Below, piece after piece: positions 1-39,710 of a DNA stretch of 40,002 bases. This DNA is from Chthoniobacterales bacterium. Lineage in GTDB: Bacteria > Verrucomicrobiota > Verrucomicrobiia > Chthoniobacterales > UBA10450. A program made the translations under genes and the position numbers. The stretch lies in contig JAICMR010000010.1 in assembly GCA_025929155.1 (NCBI GenBank), forward strand, positions 1-40,002, read 5' to 3'. The notes beneath the pieces are model-generated. The model was not told the DNA's origin, did not search any database, and saw nothing but the letters and a program-made list of their open reading frames with translations. Each line of letters opens with the position of its first letter. Position 1 is the stretch's first letter.

Positions 1-51
1 AATATGACTCTTACGTTTAACCATCCGCCGCGCGGAAGCTTTTTTATTTTT

Positions 52-1068
52 ATGGCACTCACCGAAACCGAAATTCAGCGTCAGCAAGAAATCAAACAGG
101 CCGAAGAGCTCCTCTTCACCGGGAAACAGGAACTCGGCTTCGCCAAAGGTCTTTTCCTCGGAGATTTCATCGCCGACTGGGCGATGCCTTATCCGAGAAT
201 CTCGGATGCGCAGCAGGCGCAGTTGGATCGGGCGATCGCGGAGGTGAGGGAGTTTCTCGATGCGCACCTGGACCCGGAAGCGATCGATCGCAACGCGGAT
301 ATTCCGCGGGAAGTGATCGACGGGCTCGGACGGGTCGGCGTACTCGGCATGACCGCGCCGACTGAAGTCGGGGGTCGGGGTTTTTCGCAGATGATGTATT
401 GCAAGGTGCTCGAGGAAATCGGCGCGCGTTGCGCTTCGACCGCGGTCTTCACGAACGCGCACCATTCCATCGGGATCCGCGCGCTTTTGCTTTTCGGGAC
501 CAAAGCACAAAAGGAAAAGTGGCTGCCGCGGCTGATGAATGGCGAACAACTGGCCGCCTTCGCGCTGACCGAGGCGCAAGCTGGCTCCGACGCCGCAAAT
601 GTCCAGACCACCGCGACGCCCAGCGAAGACGGCAGCCATTACGTCCTCAATGGTGAGAAACGCTACATCACGAACGCCGCGATCGCGCAAGTTCTGACGG
701 TCATGGCGCGCACGCCGGTCCCGGGCAAGGAAGGGAAAACCGCGATCACCGCCTTCCTCGTTACCCCGGATATGGAGGGCTTCGAGATGATCGAGCCGCG
801 CATGCCGAAGCTCGGGATCCGCGGAACAGCCACCGGACGTTTTCGCCTAACGAATGTAAGAGTGCCGAAGGAAAACATCCTCGGCCCGCTTGGCAAAGGT
901 CTGCGCGTCGCGCTCACCGTCCTCGATTTTGGCCGTACAACCTTCGGCGCGTGCTGCACCGGCGGGGCTAAAACCTGCCTCCGAATGGCGGTCTCGCACG
1001 CTAATTCGCGTCAGCAATTCCAGAAGACCCTGGGCAATTTCGACCTCGTGAAGAAGAAGATCGGGTGA
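52..1068 (+). CDS. Acyl-CoA dehydrogenase, N-terminal fragment ending at an in-frame TGA
   Basis: This is the first part of a flavin-dependent acyl-CoA dehydrogenase, which catalyses the first step of fatty-acid beta-oxidation. The fragment holds the N-terminal helical domain and the middle beta domain. The family signature ALTE..AGSDA lies at about residues 171-181 and ends just before the FAD/substrate contacts. I chose the ATG at 52 because the protein from MALTETE onward looks like the family start; an in-frame ATG at 4 would add 16 unlikely residues. Neither has a clear ribosome binding site. Translation stops at TGA 1066-1068 directly after KKKIG, but the same frame continues with typical family sequence. 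Together the pieces give about 600 residues, the length of very-long-chain enzymes. The stop is therefore probably a CGA to TGA nonsense change or a sequence error. This piece alone lacks the catalytic glutamate. Confidence 0.85.
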   Translation: MALTETEIQRQQEIKQAEELLFTGKQELGFAKGLFLGDFIADWAMPYPRISDAQQAQLDRAIAEVREFLDAHLDPEAIDRNADIPREVIDGLGRVGVLGMTAPTEVGGRGFSQMMYCKVLEEIGARCASTAVFTNAHHSIGIRALLLFGTKAQKEKWLPRLMNGEQLAAFALTEAQAGSDAANVQTTATPSEDGSHYVLNGEKRYITNAAIAQVLTVMARTPVPGKEGKTAITAFLVTPDMEGFEMIEPRMPKLGIRGTATGRFRLTNVRVPKENILGPLGKGLRVALTVLDFGRTTFGACCTGGAKTCLRMAVSHANSRQQFQKTLGNFDLVKKKIG

Positions 1069-13335: not shown

Positions 13336-15459
13336 ATGCCATTTCTGAGCAAGACGACGGGCTCCCCTCGGTATCTCGGCAATCCCGCCGCGCGTGCACG
13401 ACCTCTTTGGCAGTTTCTCCAGACTGACGGGTGCCGGTCCTTGCTACTTATTCTGCTTGCGGTCGCGATTCACGCGCCGGCTCTTTCGGGCCAATTCATC
13501 TGGGATGATAACTACCTTGCGCACGACAATCCCTTCATAAAGAGCCCGCTCTTCATTTTTGAAGCTTTTCGGCAGCATCTTTTTTTCGATTCCTTCTCGG
13601 CCCACTATCGGCCGGTGCAAAACCTTTCCTACATAGTTGATTACTTCTTTTGGAATGACGACACCTTCGGTTTTCACCTAACAAACATAGTGCTGCACGC
13701 TGCCAGCGGTGTGCTTCTTTACTTTCTCGCGCGCCGGCTTCTTCACTCGCTCTTTGCCGAGAAACTGAGTATCCCGGTTCGATCTGGCGCGGCTTTCCTT
13801 GTGGCTTTGCTCTGGACTGTGCACCCGGTGCATAGCGCCGCGGTCGACTACATCTCAGGTCGCGCTGATAGCCTGGCCTTCGTTTTCGCCTCTGGCGGCT
13901 GGCTGCTTTATCTCCGCGGAATCGAGGCTAAATCGCGAGGATTGCGGCTCACTCTCTTTTCCGGCGCGGCTTGCACGGCACTTCTTGCGCTTTGTTCGCG
14001 TGAAACGGCCGGACTCTGGCTGATTATTTTTCTCCTCCACACACTGGGTTTCTCGCGAAAAACCAGCCGGCGCTCGAAGGGCTTGCTGCTGGCAAGTTGC
14101 GTCGCGCTTTTCGCCGTCTACTGCGGCCTGCGACAGTTGCCGGAGCAACGCCAGGGTTCAGGTCCAACTCCCGGCTGGAGCAGCTCCGTCCGGATGGTCC
14201 TCATGCTGCGCGCCCTCGGCGATTACGGGCGGCTGATGGTGTTCCCGGCGAACCTCCACATGGAGAGAACGGTCGTTGATAATGAAACCTATGGGTCACA
14301 CGCGAGCTGGCAGCATTCCGTCGAAACCGAGTACCTCTCGATCGGCGGGTTATTCGTGGCTGGCCTGCTTGGTGTCGGTTGCTGCCGCGGCGGCGCGGGT
14401 CGCAAAACTCGCATCTTTGGCGCCTGTTGGTTCGCGGTAGGTTTTCTTCCCATCTCCAATCTTTTCGATCTCAACGCGACCGTGGCTGAGCATTGGCTTT
14501 ACCTGCCGAGCGTGGGGCTGCTGATCTTCGCGGCCGGTATCGCTCTGGATGTTCCGGTGCGTTACCGGCGCGCGCTCACGATTGGCGCGTGTGCGGCCGT
14601 GGTTGCCCTTAGTCTGCGAAGCGCGGCGCGGAGCAGTGATTGGACGACGCCGGAGCATTTTTACAAGCAAACCATCGCGGCCGGCGGAACGAGCACGCGC
14701 GTCGCCCTGAATCTCGGTCAGCTATACGCGGAACGTGGTGAATACGTTCGAGCCGAAAAGTGTTTCCGCGAAATCCTCGCGGGCTACCCTGATTATCCGG
14801 TCGCGCAAAATAATCTCGCCAATGCGCTTTTCCACGAGGGCAGACGCGAGGAAGCCGAAGCGCTTTTCGCAAAATCCACAAAGGCCGCCGCTGAAGAGCG
14901 GAAAGAATATCCGCGAACCTGGATCGCGGCGCTCAACCTTGCCGGACTCCACGACCAGCAGAAGGATGTGACAGGTGCGCTCGCGATTCTGGACAAAGCT
15001 CGCGCCGAATATCCAAAAACGTGGGAGATCGTGAGCTTCGAAGCCGAAGTCCTGCGCAACAACCAAGGCCCGGGCGCGGCGATTCCACTCGTGGAAGATT
15101 ACAAGCGTGCCAACTGGTGGAACTACGGCGCTTCGCTCGCGCTCGGCCGCTTACGCGCCCAAAATGGCGAGGCGGAAAAAGCCGAGGCTGCGCTCCGCGA
15201 CGCGAGCCGGCTTGACATGCATGAAGTGGAAGCGCTCAATCTGCTGGCCGACCTTCGTGTTCACCAAAACCGTCTTGCAGATGCCTGCGCCGCGCAGCGC
15301 CGGGCGATTTCGCGCCAGCCGAATCTTCCGCGCGAATACCTCTTTCTCTCGCGGATTCTCGAGAAGATGGGACGCACCGCGGAAGCTCGAGAAGCGATCG
15401 CGAAAGTCACGGAGCTCCAAACCTCCGCGCGCGAGTTTGGCCGTGTGGCGGTCGATTGA
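13336..15459 (+). CDS. TMTC-like membrane glycosyltransferase with C-terminal TPR repeats
   Basis: This 707-residue protein has a membrane domain (about residues 35-430) followed by tetratricopeptide repeats (about 440-700). After the first helix comes SGQFIWDDNYLAHDNPFI with Asp57-Asp58, the acidic pair typical of this GT-C group; HYRPVQNLSYIVDYFFWNDDTFGFHLTN matches the conserved loop that follows. Animal TMTC proteins of this design O-mannosylate exported proteins, and the TPR part may recognise the acceptor. Sequence visible in the repeats includes TRVALNLGQLYAERGEYVRAEKCF. The gene follows the pilin pair in the same direction after 118 bases. It stops with TGA. Acceptor and sugar are unknown; bacterial proteins of this type are mostly uncharacterised. 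Confidence 0.75.
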   Translation: MPFLSKTTGSPRYLGNPAARARPLWQFLQTDGCRSLLLILLAVAIHAPALSGQFIWDDNYLAHDNPFIKSPLFIFEAFRQHLFFDSFSAHYRPVQNLSYIVDYFFWNDDTFGFHLTNIVLHAASGVLLYFLARRLLHSLFAEKLSIPVRSGAAFLVALLWTVHPVHSAAVDYISGRADSLAFVFASGGWLLYLRGIEAKSRGLRLTLFSGAACTALLALCSRETAGLWLIIFLLHTLGFSRKTSRRSKGLLLASCVALFAVYCGLRQLPEQRQGSGPTPGWSSSVRMVLMLRALGDYGRLMVFPANLHMERTVVDNETYGSHASWQHSVETEYLSIGGLFVAGLLGVGCCRGGAGRKTRIFGACWFAVGFLPISNLFDLNATVAEHWLYLPSVGLLIFAAGIALDVPVRYRRALTIGACAAVVALSLRSAARSSDWTTPEHFYKQTIAAGGTSTRVALNLGQLYAERGEYVRAEKCFREILAGYPDYPVAQNNLANALFHEGRREEAEALFAKSTKAAAEERKEYPRTWIAALNLAGLHDQQKDVTGALAILDKARAEYPKTWEIVSFEAEVLRNNQGPGAAIPLVEDYKRANWWNYGASLALGRLRAQNGEAEKAEAALRDASRLDMHEVEALNLLADLRVHQNRLADACAAQRRAISRQPNLPREYLFLSRILEKMGRTAEAREAIAKVTELQTSAREFGRVAVD

Positions 15460-23779: not shown

Positions 23780-24715
23780 ATGGCATTCGCCAGTCGGCAA
23801 AGTAATCTTCTCGCATCGATGAAAAGGCTTCACTTGCTCGGTCGCGTAACCCGCCGCCTCGTCTGGGAAACGATTACCGACGAGACGATGGGCCTTTCGG
23901 CGCAGATGGCTTACCAGATGCTTTTCACCCTCGCGCCGGGGCTGCTCTTTCTCTGGCATTTGCTCGGACTTTTCGGGACAGACCCGGCGAAGTTGCACAC
24001 GATGCTCGGCGTCGTTAGGGCCTTTCTGCCGCCCGACCCCAAGGTGCAGGAAATCCTCGATACCATCGTCGCAAACGTGATTGTGACCGGGAGCAATGGA
24101 AAGCTTGCGATCGCCGGCATCATCCTTGGGATCTATCTGGGCACGCTCTTCATTTCCACGATCTCACGCGCGCTCAGTCACACTCATGGCGTGACCGAAG
24201 ATCGCAACTGGTGGTCGAAATACATCATTTCGTTTTTCCTCCTTTTTTGGTTTGGGATCACGATCCTGATTGCTTTCAACGTTACGGTTTTTGGCGAGGC
24301 GCTTGCGGGAATGGCAGAGGTGAATTTGCAGCTCCACATCCCGCTCCAGGAATGGGTCGCCTACCTGAACCTGCCCTTTACCGGCATCGCGCTCGTCATT
24401 CTCGCTCTCGCGCTCTACCTGCTGACGCCGGAGAACTACCTGACGATTCGGCAGGCGCTGCCGGGCGCGATTTTTTTCTCCATCGGCTGGATGACGGTGA
24501 CGAAGCTGTTTCAGTTCTACGTCGCCCGTTACGACCGCTACAACCCAACTTATCTCGCGCTCGCTTCCATCATCATGCTCCTGACATGGATGTATCTCAC
24601 CTGTCTGCTGCTCCTCCTCGGCGGGAAATTGAACGCGATCCTGCGCCGCGAAAGCGAACGGGCCGCGATCGCGCGCGCTGCCACGGAAGCGGCGAGCGAG
24701 CCGCAACCGGCCTGA
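23780..24715 (+). CDS. YihY/BrkB family inner-membrane protein
   Basis: This 311-residue membrane protein of the BrkB/YihY family was once annotated as RNase BN. About six helices are visible: LSAQMAYQMLFTLAPGLLFLWHLLG near the N-terminus matches the family start, followed by IAGIILGIYLGTLFISTISRAL, YIISFFLLFWFGITILIAF and the conserved C-terminal region RYDRYNPTYLALASIIMLLTWMYLTCLLLLLGGKLNA. The function is not established; a transporter role has been proposed. ATG 23780 is chosen. A longer open frame extends back to 23510 but overlaps the coding region of the divergent gene. ATG 23819 (MKRLHLLG) is another possible start. It is followed after 15 bases by the former start of the amidase reading frame. 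Confidence 0.82.
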   Translation: MAFASRQSNLLASMKRLHLLGRVTRRLVWETITDETMGLSAQMAYQMLFTLAPGLLFLWHLLGLFGTDPAKLHTMLGVVRAFLPPDPKVQEILDTIVANVIVTGSNGKLAIAGIILGIYLGTLFISTISRALSHTHGVTEDRNWWSKYIISFFLLFWFGITILIAFNVTVFGEALAGMAEVNLQLHIPLQEWVAYLNLPFTGIALVILALALYLLTPENYLTIRQALPGAIFFSIGWMTVTKLFQFYVARYDRYNPTYLALASIIMLLTWMYLTCLLLLLGGKLNAILRRESERAAIARAATEAASEPQPA

Positions 24716-24730
24716 GAGGTCCGCTGAATT

Positions 24731-24877
24731 TTGATTCGTCGATTGCGCACTCATTCACGCTGGCCACTGCTCGCGGTCGCGCTTCTGCTGCTTGTCGGCA
24801 TCGGTCTGCGCACGATCGCATGAGCCGAACCGACGGAGGAAGAAAAGCGGCAACTCTTCCTGAAAGCGCGCGAACGG
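24731..24877 (+). pseudogene. Detached N-terminal membrane anchor of the amidase, ended by in-frame TGA
   Basis: From TTG 24731, ten bases after GAGAGGT, the frame encodes MIRRLRTHSRWPLLAVALLL, then LVGIGLRTIA and TGA at 24821-24823. This is a typical signal or anchor segment. The frame continues after the TGA as AEPTEEEKRQLFLKARER into the amidase frame. The intact gene probably began here, 15 bases after the BrkB-like stop. CGA (Arg) changed to TGA would explain it. Confidence 0.6.
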
Positions 24878-25753
24878 ATGCGCACCGTCGCGAGTCCCAC
24901 TCCCGCGAAAGAAAGCACGCCGCGGCACAAGCCGAAGCCGGCGAAACATCCGCCTGCGAAACACAAAAAAGCCGCGGCCTCGAAACCAACTCCGGAGCCC
25001 GAAGAGGAAGAAACGCCCGCGCCCGAACGCGCGCGAAACACTCCGGAGCCGGAAGAAACGGCACGTCGTTCTCAGCCTAACGAGTCAAAGCCGGGACCGA
25101 CGGTCGCTCGAAAAGTGAACCCAACTCCAACGCCGGCCGTGAGCAAAGCTCCTACAGGCAGGACCGCTCCGGCGCAGGTCGTGATCGAGAAATCGGGTTA
25201 CCAGAAACCGCGCGGGTTTTCGCTCCTGCCGTTCCACCTTTTCGGTAAGCACTACAAATATCTGACGCGCTCCGTGCGCAGCCAGATCGATCGCGCGCCG
25301 GTCCTGCGCGAGCGCTGGCGTTTCATCATCGTGCACAACAGCGGGACGCGGCAGGGGAACGCGCGGATTTTCGACTACTACCACCGGCATGTCCGCCGGA
25401 TGCCGAACGGGCTCGCCTACCATTTCGTGATCGGCAACGGCACCTCTTCGGGCGACGGCGAGATCGAGATCGGCAACCGCTGGACGCGCCAGATCAATGG
25501 CGGCCATGTGCACAGCGATTACCTCAACAACATTTCCTTAGGCATTTGCCTGGTCGGAGATTTTAATCGGGATCAACCGACGAAAGCGCAGCTCGACGCC
25601 TGCGAGGAATTGATCCGATACCTCCGAGCACGGTGCGGAAAAGTCGATCGCAAGGAAATCCCGGTCCGTCCTCATCGGGAGATGAATCCGCCGCGTTGGG
25701 CGACGGATTGCCCCGGAGACGACTTCCCTTACAAGTGGTTTCGACAATTCTAG
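24878..25753 (+). CDS. N-acetylmuramoyl-L-alanine amidase domain protein with Pro/Lys-rich linker
   Basis: This 291-residue protein consists of a low-complexity Pro/Lys/Glu-rich linker (about residues 5-100) and an amidase_2/PGRP-type domain (about 145-290) that would cleave the bond between N-acetylmuramic acid and the stem peptide of peptidoglycan. Likely zinc ligands are His153 (IIVHNSGT), His266 (VRPHREM) and Cys278 (TDCPG), the usual His-His-Cys set; RMPNGLAYHFVIGNG and ISLGICLVGDFN match the fold. From the annotated ATG there is no export signal, although the linker and enzyme only make sense outside the cytoplasm. The missing anchor is found just upstream in the same frame, cut off by a TGA (24821-24823). 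The real gene is therefore probably 24731-25753. Confidence 0.8.
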   Translation: MRTVASPTPAKESTPRHKPKPAKHPPAKHKKAAASKPTPEPEEEETPAPERARNTPEPEETARRSQPNESKPGPTVARKVNPTPTPAVSKAPTGRTAPAQVVIEKSGYQKPRGFSLLPFHLFGKHYKYLTRSVRSQIDRAPVLRERWRFIIVHNSGTRQGNARIFDYYHRHVRRMPNGLAYHFVIGNGTSSGDGEIEIGNRWTRQINGGHVHSDYLNNISLGICLVGDFNRDQPTKAQLDACEELIRYLRARCGKVDRKEIPVRPHREMNPPRWATDCPGDDFPYKWFRQF

Positions 25754-38223: not shown

Positions 38224-38551
38224 CCGCGAGCAGCTGCCGATCTTTGCAGACGCTGCAACGATCGCTCCGCGAGAATCAGCCCGAAATGAGATGCCTCCGG
38301 GACGCGACCGTGGGCGATCTCTGCTAGCGGGCTTGGCGCGACGGAGCCGGATTACCGCCCGCGACGGGTCTGGTCGACAGGTTCGGAGCGGCACAATCGA
38401 AAGGCCTTGCGACGACGATGCGGACGAGTCGCGACGGGGGCCGTGGCTACTCAAATCCCCACGTTACTACGGAAGCCGATCCCTATATTCGCGGAGTATC
38501 GACCCCGAGACAGACGAGGTTGTTTCGGCGGCGCGGCCGGTTCTCGCCGCG
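38224..38551. other. Gap of 328 bases without a recognised gene
   Basis: No plausible start, homology or RNA structure was found on either strand. Short open frames exist but look random. No nonamer copy or dispersed repeat is seen. It separates the redoxin gene from the convergent, frameshifted dehydrogenase and could hide decayed coding sequence. Confidence 0.4.
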
Positions 38552-39327
38552 TCATCGATACACCATGCCGCCATCGATGAGCGGGGCTTGCCCGGTCATG
38601 TAATCTGAATCCGGACCCGCGAGGTAAGATACGAACGCGGCTACATCCACCGGCGTTTCGGCGCGGCCCAGCGCAATGCCGCCGACGAATTTTTCGTAGT
38701 TCTCCCCGATCTTAGCCCCGGTAATTTCCGCCGTTCGCCGGTCGATCTCCACCCACATGTCGGTGCCGACTACGCCCGGGCAATACGCGTTCACCGTGAT
38801 GCCGCTGCTCGCGAACTCTTTCGCTGCGGCCTGAGTCAAAGCGCGAACTGCGAACTTGGTCGCGCAATAACTCCGAGAAGCGGGTAGCCCTCATGTCCGG
38901 CGATCGAAGCGGCGCTGATGATTTTGCCTTCTGTTTGCGCTTCTGGAACTTTTTCGCGGCGGCTTGGATTCCCCACAGAACCCCGCCGAGATTTATGCGC
39001 ATGATCTTCTCTAAGTCCTCCGGCGTCACTTCCGCGAGTGGTTTGATCTGTGCGATCCCGGCATTGTTCACCATGATGTCGAACCCGCCGAGTTCCTTCT
39101 CCGCGTGGTCGATCGCGCGTAAACGTCCTCCCGCTTCGAGACGTCGGCTTTGAAGGTCGTAGCCTTGCGCCCGAGCGCTTTCACTTCGTCGGCGATCGCT
39201 TTCATCTTTTCTTCGTTTAAGTCCACAACTGCAATGTCCGCGCCGTCGTTTGCCAGGCGCAAGCCGATCCCGCGGCCGATCCCTGACCCGCGCCCGTCAC
39301 CAACGCGATTTTCCCTTGAATGCTCAT
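38552..39327 (-). pseudogene. Short-chain dehydrogenase/reductase, frameshifted (acetoin/diacetyl-reductase-like)
   Basis: Pieces of one classical SDR of about 258 residues are spread over different frames: MSIQGKIALVTGAG, then IGRGIGLRLANDGADIAVVDLNEEK, then IMVNNAGIAQIKPL and MRINLGGVLWGIQAA, then SAASIAGHEGYPLLG, then ALTQAAAKEFASSGITVNAYCPG to the end. Restoring one base at each of four places (near 39281-39284, 39115-39118, 38936-38942 and 38866-38871) reconnects them. The last lies within the catalytic Y-x-x-x-K (Y-CATK). All four are deletions of one base, mostly in short runs. It could be a decayed gene or a poor-quality stretch of assembly. The original enzyme would reduce small ketones or diols with NAD(H). 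The start ATG lies five bases after the upstream gene. Confidence 0.8.
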
Positions 39328-39332
39328 GTTCT

Positions 39333-39710
39333 TTAGCCTTCCTGCTTCTGATCGCTTTTCGCTGCTTCCACCATTTGGTCGTGCGCCGCTTCTTCGACGC
39401 CGCGGCTGGCGAGGCGTTCGTCCAGGAGCGCTTCATCCTTCGGCTCGACGCGCGGGATTTCTCCGCCGCTTTCGCCCGGAATCGAATCGCGCTCGCTCCA
39501 AGTTGAGTCATCCTGCGACGCGCTCCGGTCCGTGCCGGTCAATTCTGCGCGCGCCTGTTCCCAGTCCGCATCGGTAAACCGATCGGGATTTCGTTCATCA
39601 AGCCGCGCGATCTCGCGCGCGCGTTGGTCCACCATCTCAGGCGTCGGGACGCCGAGCTCAGTTTCGCGGCCGGAAAGGTCGCCAATCGGGGTCTGCGGTT
39701 TTGTGTTCAT
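39333..39710 (-). CDS. Small acidic hydrophilic protein, 125 residues
   Basis: The function is not recognised. The protein is charged, with no membrane segment or cysteine. TPEMVDQRAREIARLDERNPDRFTDADWEQARAELTG (about 23-59) forms a helical block resembling short motifs in stress-related small proteins of the DUF2934 type, but this is a weak resemblance. The rest is disordered-looking, rich in Glu, Asp and Ser. Its ATG overlaps the stop of the upstream universal stress protein (TCAT at 39707-39710 on the plus strand). The SDR follows after five bases, so the three genes look like one stress-type operon. Its frame is intact, unlike both neighbours. Confidence 0.7.
   Translation of the reverse strand: MNTKPQTPIGDLSGRETELGVPTPEMVDQRAREIARLDERNPDRFTDADWEQARAELTGTDRSASQDDSTWSERDSIPGESGGEIPRVEPKDEALLDERLASRGVEEAAHDQMVEAAKSDQKQEG

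Follow-up and report, generated by a model that had tools for sequence, protein, structure and literature searches.

A TGA at 24821-24823 parts the N-terminal signal of a predicted exported peptidoglycan amidase from the rest of its gene, and we consider it very probably a sporadic single-base nonsense change, either an error of the consensus sequence or a strain allele that is recent or in the minority. Since related genes are unbroken at this place, a sporadic defect or an assembly error is the most likely explanation, ahead of any novel decoding of the stop codon. The window, by which we mean the whole stretch of DNA analysed here, is the entire contig C200 (40,002 bases), one of the 241 contigs of a 3.41 Mb draft genome with a completeness of 96.95% and a contamination of 5.04%. 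The nearest named relatives are metagenome-assembled Chthoniobacterales and Spartobacteria.

Layout of the amidase locus

The following features make up the locus.

23819-24715, plus strand: gene for a YihY/BrkB-family inner-membrane protein (PF03631, E 6.1e-46; NCBIfam model TIGR00765 over its cut-off; ATG start chosen by eye).
24731-24820, plus strand: predicted N-terminal signal peptide of the amidase with a TTG start, fused in frame and with the TTG kept in the relatives G001-G005, and backed by sequence shuffles.
24821-24823, plus strand: in-frame TGA in the codon just ahead of the Ala where cleavage is likely; the five closest relatives have Arg, Gln or His instead.
24824-25309, plus strand: linker of the amidase, charged and rich in Pro; the first start codon past the TGA is the ATG at 24878.
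25310-25720, plus strand: Amidase_2 domain (Pfam match), the sole one found in the genome; the frame ends at TAG 25751-25753.

The translation of 24731-24877 reads LIRRLRTHSRWPLLAVALLLLVGIGLRTIA before the TGA and AEPTEEEKRQLFLKARER after it. The first-pass annotation had described a stretch in the amidase frame, 15 bases past the previous gene and cut by this TGA, and the translation confirmed that layout. The YihY/BrkB-family gene has its stop codon at 24713-24715, and 15 bases lie between it and the TTG at 24731, from which 30 codons run through a basic part and then a hydrophobic core up to the TGA, and the same frame stays open beyond it as far as the TAG at 25751-25753. Downstream of the TGA, a single Amidase_2 domain (Pfam PF01510) was matched with an E value of 3.8e-16, above the gathering score. 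The NCBIfam models gave no match to the amidase part after 24878, and the comparison of the amidase with solved structures gave weak matches, the best of which was the peptidoglycan recognition protein 4z8i (E 3e-6).

From this layout, we propose that the gene would encode an exported peptidoglycan amidase of the Amidase_2 type, whose N-terminus, from TTG 24731 on, is a cleavable signal peptide. A single-base nonsense change would have placed the TGA inside this signal peptide in C200 alone. Taken at face value, the sequence would yield a peptide of 30 residues, and a restart downstream, where ATG 24878 is the first start codon, would give a signal-less, cytoplasmic product. An out-of-frame ATG at 24820-24822, which overlaps the TGA, was also considered as a restart site. 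We dropped it because the relatives have no stop there that would need a restart, and because its frame (part of 24211-25080) runs through the amidase linker.

The stop is absent from related amidase genes

The signal peptide and the amidase, which the TGA keeps from forming one open frame in the window, do form one in relatives. In four genomes of the same genus (G001-G004) and one of the same family (G005), the TTG, the hydrophobic core and the EEEK segment all lie in a single open frame, so that the orthologue alignment proposed as a check in the first-pass annotation shows the stretch fused to the amidase. The residue at the TGA place is Arg in G001, G002 and G004, Gln in G003, whose alignment is gapped just before this place, and His in G005. 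Identities between the window and these five relatives amount to 11 to 16 of the 25 to 29 residues aligned before the TGA, and to 11 to 16 of 18 after it. When the 30 residues of the window were shuffled as a whole, the real score was reached in 0 to 6 of 2000 shuffles per relative, and when they were shuffled within three blocks it was reached in 0 to 58 of 2000, across the same five relatives. Judged by these alignments, the likeness of the 24731-24820 stretch to the relatives is not a matter of chance.

We found the same in wider samples. A search of 83 genomes returned a match in 74, and a stop inside the match was seen in the window alone. An aligned piece spans the TGA place in 32 of the 73 matching relatives, at times as a weak second piece, and therefore the comparison of 74 loci is the fuller test at this place. 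These 74 loci, the window included, were obtained from 100 by taking out duplicates and any without an Amidase_2 match. A hydrophobic segment, defined as a 15-mer with a mean Kyte-Doolittle value of 1.6 or more in the same frame as the domain, was present in 67 of the 74 distinct Amidase_2 loci. The remaining seven are the window itself, four loci truncated at a contig edge (L024, L029, L068 and L069), L046, which scores 1.53 and has a visible signal-like segment, and L070, which scores 0.44 and has none. The window is the one locus among the 74 where a stop is seen parting the segment from the domain.

The N-terminal stretch as a likely cleavable signal peptide

The first-pass annotation took this stretch for a membrane anchor of the amidase. 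Its assignment to the amidase stands, but the sequence of the stretch fits a signal peptide removed by signal peptidase I better than an anchor. The pattern x-x-A-[QE] follows the hydrophobic segment in 44 of the 68 loci other than the window (threshold 1.5), and the -3 residue in those 44 loci is Leu, Val, Ala, Thr, Gly or Ser. Cleavage by signal peptidase follows the -3/-1 rule, and this pattern suggests that the amidase signal is cleaved after the conserved Ala. The TGA occupies the -2 place of this likely cleavage site, directly before its Ala. Ten different residues are found at the -2 place in the 44 loci, with Arg in 12, His in 11, Gln in 6, Cys, Ser and Tyr in three each, and others in the rest. 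A lipobox pattern was found in 4 of the 68 loci and neither pattern in 20, several of the latter being planctomycete loci with a Gly-Cys pair.

In the planctomycete amidase relatives L073-L078, L080 and L081, the hydrophobic segment is followed by the Gly-Cys, an arrangement known from lipoprotein signals. Most of the Chthoniobacterales loci have Ala-Gln or Ala-Glu at the place of this Gly-Cys.

Evidence for and against a sporadic change

Over 278 ungapped codons from 24878, the comparison of the window with four same-genus genomes gave dN values of 0.12-0.17 and dS values of 1.06-1.74. Relative-rate counts for the amidase were even in four of five cases; the fifth, with 28 changes in the window versus 13, is a poor test whose outgroup is closer to the comparison genome. 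We saw no sign of long decay in the amidase gene. Since the gene is constrained after 24878 and the relative rates are mostly even, the TGA change is either recent or not real.

In addition, a sporadic change is favored by breaks in two other genes of C200 and by the mixture of haplotypes in the assembly. The first break is a second in-frame TGA.

1066-1068, plus strand: in-frame TGA in an acyl-CoA dehydrogenase gene (4-1860), whose C-terminal Pfam domain is left in two halves.

The frames of all aligned relatives (15 of 15) have Arg at this place. The second break lies near the right contig end, where a short-chain dehydrogenase gene on the minus strand (38550-39400) shows several frame changes; the matches of 12 relatives to the first piece of this broken gene were weak ones only. 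As for the haplotypes, contig C50 (L138, 341-1) overlaps the left end of the window (1-341) and disagrees with it at 20 positions in 341, of which 17 are third codon positions, and we therefore conclude that haplotypes are mixed in the assembly.

In a stop scan based on homology, coverage came to 31.0 kb for the window and about 19.2 kb for a sample of its own genome. Besides 1066 and 24821, the scan of the window listed stops at 15457, 22138, 22631 and 23456, which we put down, on the basis of the alignments, to gene boundaries, pre-start sequence or shadow frames. In the homology-covered part of the window (31.0 kb), we judged no gene to be broken by a TAA or TAG. The three flags raised by a frame-change scan were likewise put down to shadow frames. 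Split genes were also sought with a codon-score scan of 20 stretches of the same genome (343.5 kb) and of the window. It marked 18 stops, six for each of the three stop codons, and we took no rate from it because it included gene boundaries and missed the amidase stop. Two in-frame TGA codons in 40 kb deserve mention, but a modest rate of errors or alleles would suffice, and the genome-wide checks were patternless.

Several observations count against a sporadic change. Apart from the TGA at 24821, the frame is undisturbed in either direction. The gene carries the only Amidase_2 domain found in the genome, and therefore its loss should be costly. Both in-frame TGA codons stand at places of mostly Arg in relatives, and no gene-breaking TAA or TAG accompanies them in the 31.0 kb covered by homology, in which a reader could see a pattern. 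To these we add the uneven relative-rate count (28 versus 13) and the locus L070, which is without an in-frame hydrophobic segment.

Alternative readings of the TGA

One alternative is readthrough, in which UGA is read at some rate, for example by tRNA-Trp, and this rate sets the amount of exported amidase. We regard it as very improbable. UGA has been reported to be the leakiest stop (PMC5289835), and the frame after the TGA is both open and constrained. Moreover, the -2 place tolerates many side chains (ten residues among the 44 relatives), and therefore a misread residue would do little harm. However, the programmed readthrough raised in the first-pass annotation found no backing in the comparisons, as the stop was seen in none of the relatives examined, the fold of 86 bases around the TGA is no better than those of shuffled sequences (z -0.05), and a hairpin of 7-8 bp on the 3' side of the TGA also forms in the stop-free G004 and G001. 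The base after the TGA is G and not A, which is said to favor misreading by tRNA-Trp in E. coli (PMC5289835). The tRNA-Trp of this genome, inspected by eye, has a five-pair anticodon stem with G-U at the top and G at position 24, and therefore does not look like the misreading forms described in PMC13092985. A stricter version, in which the UGA is real and fixed and its leaky decoding sets the export of the sole Amidase_2 enzyme, the rest ending as the 30-residue peptide, is harder still to credit. If the stop were real and read through, the level of export would be set by a leaky stop.

Two products by design, namely a 30-residue single-span membrane peptide and a cytoplasmic amidase starting at ATG 24878, would be an explanation whose plausibility falls between those two versions of readthrough. 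An ATG is indeed available at 24878, and each of the six relatives aligned beside the window has Met at the corresponding codon. However, both parts lie in one frame in the five closest relatives, so that this Met is internal there, and a cytoplasmic amidase was found in no stop-bounded relative among the 74 loci, with L070 perhaps excepted.

We give hardly any credence to selenocysteine, for which the UGA would be read by tRNA-Sec together with SelB. Contig C41 (L192/L210 and L211) carries a tRNA-Sec with the anticodon TCA and SelB, and therefore the genome very likely makes selenoproteins; Cys occupies the -2 place in 3 of the 44 wider loci. However, none of the five closest relatives has Cys at the TGA place, where they have Arg, Gln or His, and neither the fold, no better than shuffles, nor the hairpin, common to stop-free relatives, sets this TGA apart. 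No function is known for selenocysteine within a signal that is cleaved off.

The reassignment of TGA to an amino acid in this organism is just as hard to credit and is already contradicted. Both in-frame TGA codons sit where relatives mostly have Arg and a Verrucomicrobiota lineage that reads UGA as Trp exists (PMC13092985), but RF2 is found in the genome over its cut-off, TGA ends 10 of the 30 hand-listed window frames (9 of 29 without the disputed stop at 1066), the 44 ABC_tran matches in the genome contain no stop, the 18 MFS_1 matches contain no TGA (one weak piece has a TAA), and no UCA anticodon occurs among the 46 tRNA matches read by ARAGORN, tRNA-Sec apart, all of which agrees with the first-pass view that general reassignment is unlikely.

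Relation to known systems and consequences for annotation

The gene resembles the exported N-acetylmuramoyl-L-alanine amidases of the Amidase_2 type (PF01510) in its domain and in the in-frame N-terminal signal segment of its relatives, and it is unlike them in that a TGA parts the signal from the enzyme in C200. With nonsense alleles, pseudogenes and consensus errors in draft genomes it shares a single stop, a gene otherwise intact and constrained, stop-free relatives and mixed haplotypes, and we found nothing that sets the C200 case apart from these. The likeness to UGA recoding, whether by readthrough, selenocysteine or UGA as Trp, consists of the in-frame UGA, the functional-looking gene and the selenocysteine machinery in the genome, whereas the UGA here is not conserved, RF2 is kept, the UCA anticodon is found in tRNA-Sec alone and the fold is undistinctive.

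Finding in-frame TGA codons twice in a draft contig should not be taken for recoding, even in a genome with selenocysteine machinery. A sporadic change at 24821 matters mainly for annotation. A start placed at ATG 24878 would make the enzyme look cytoplasmic, whereas in the relatives an N-terminal signal begins at a TTG 49 codons before that ATG.
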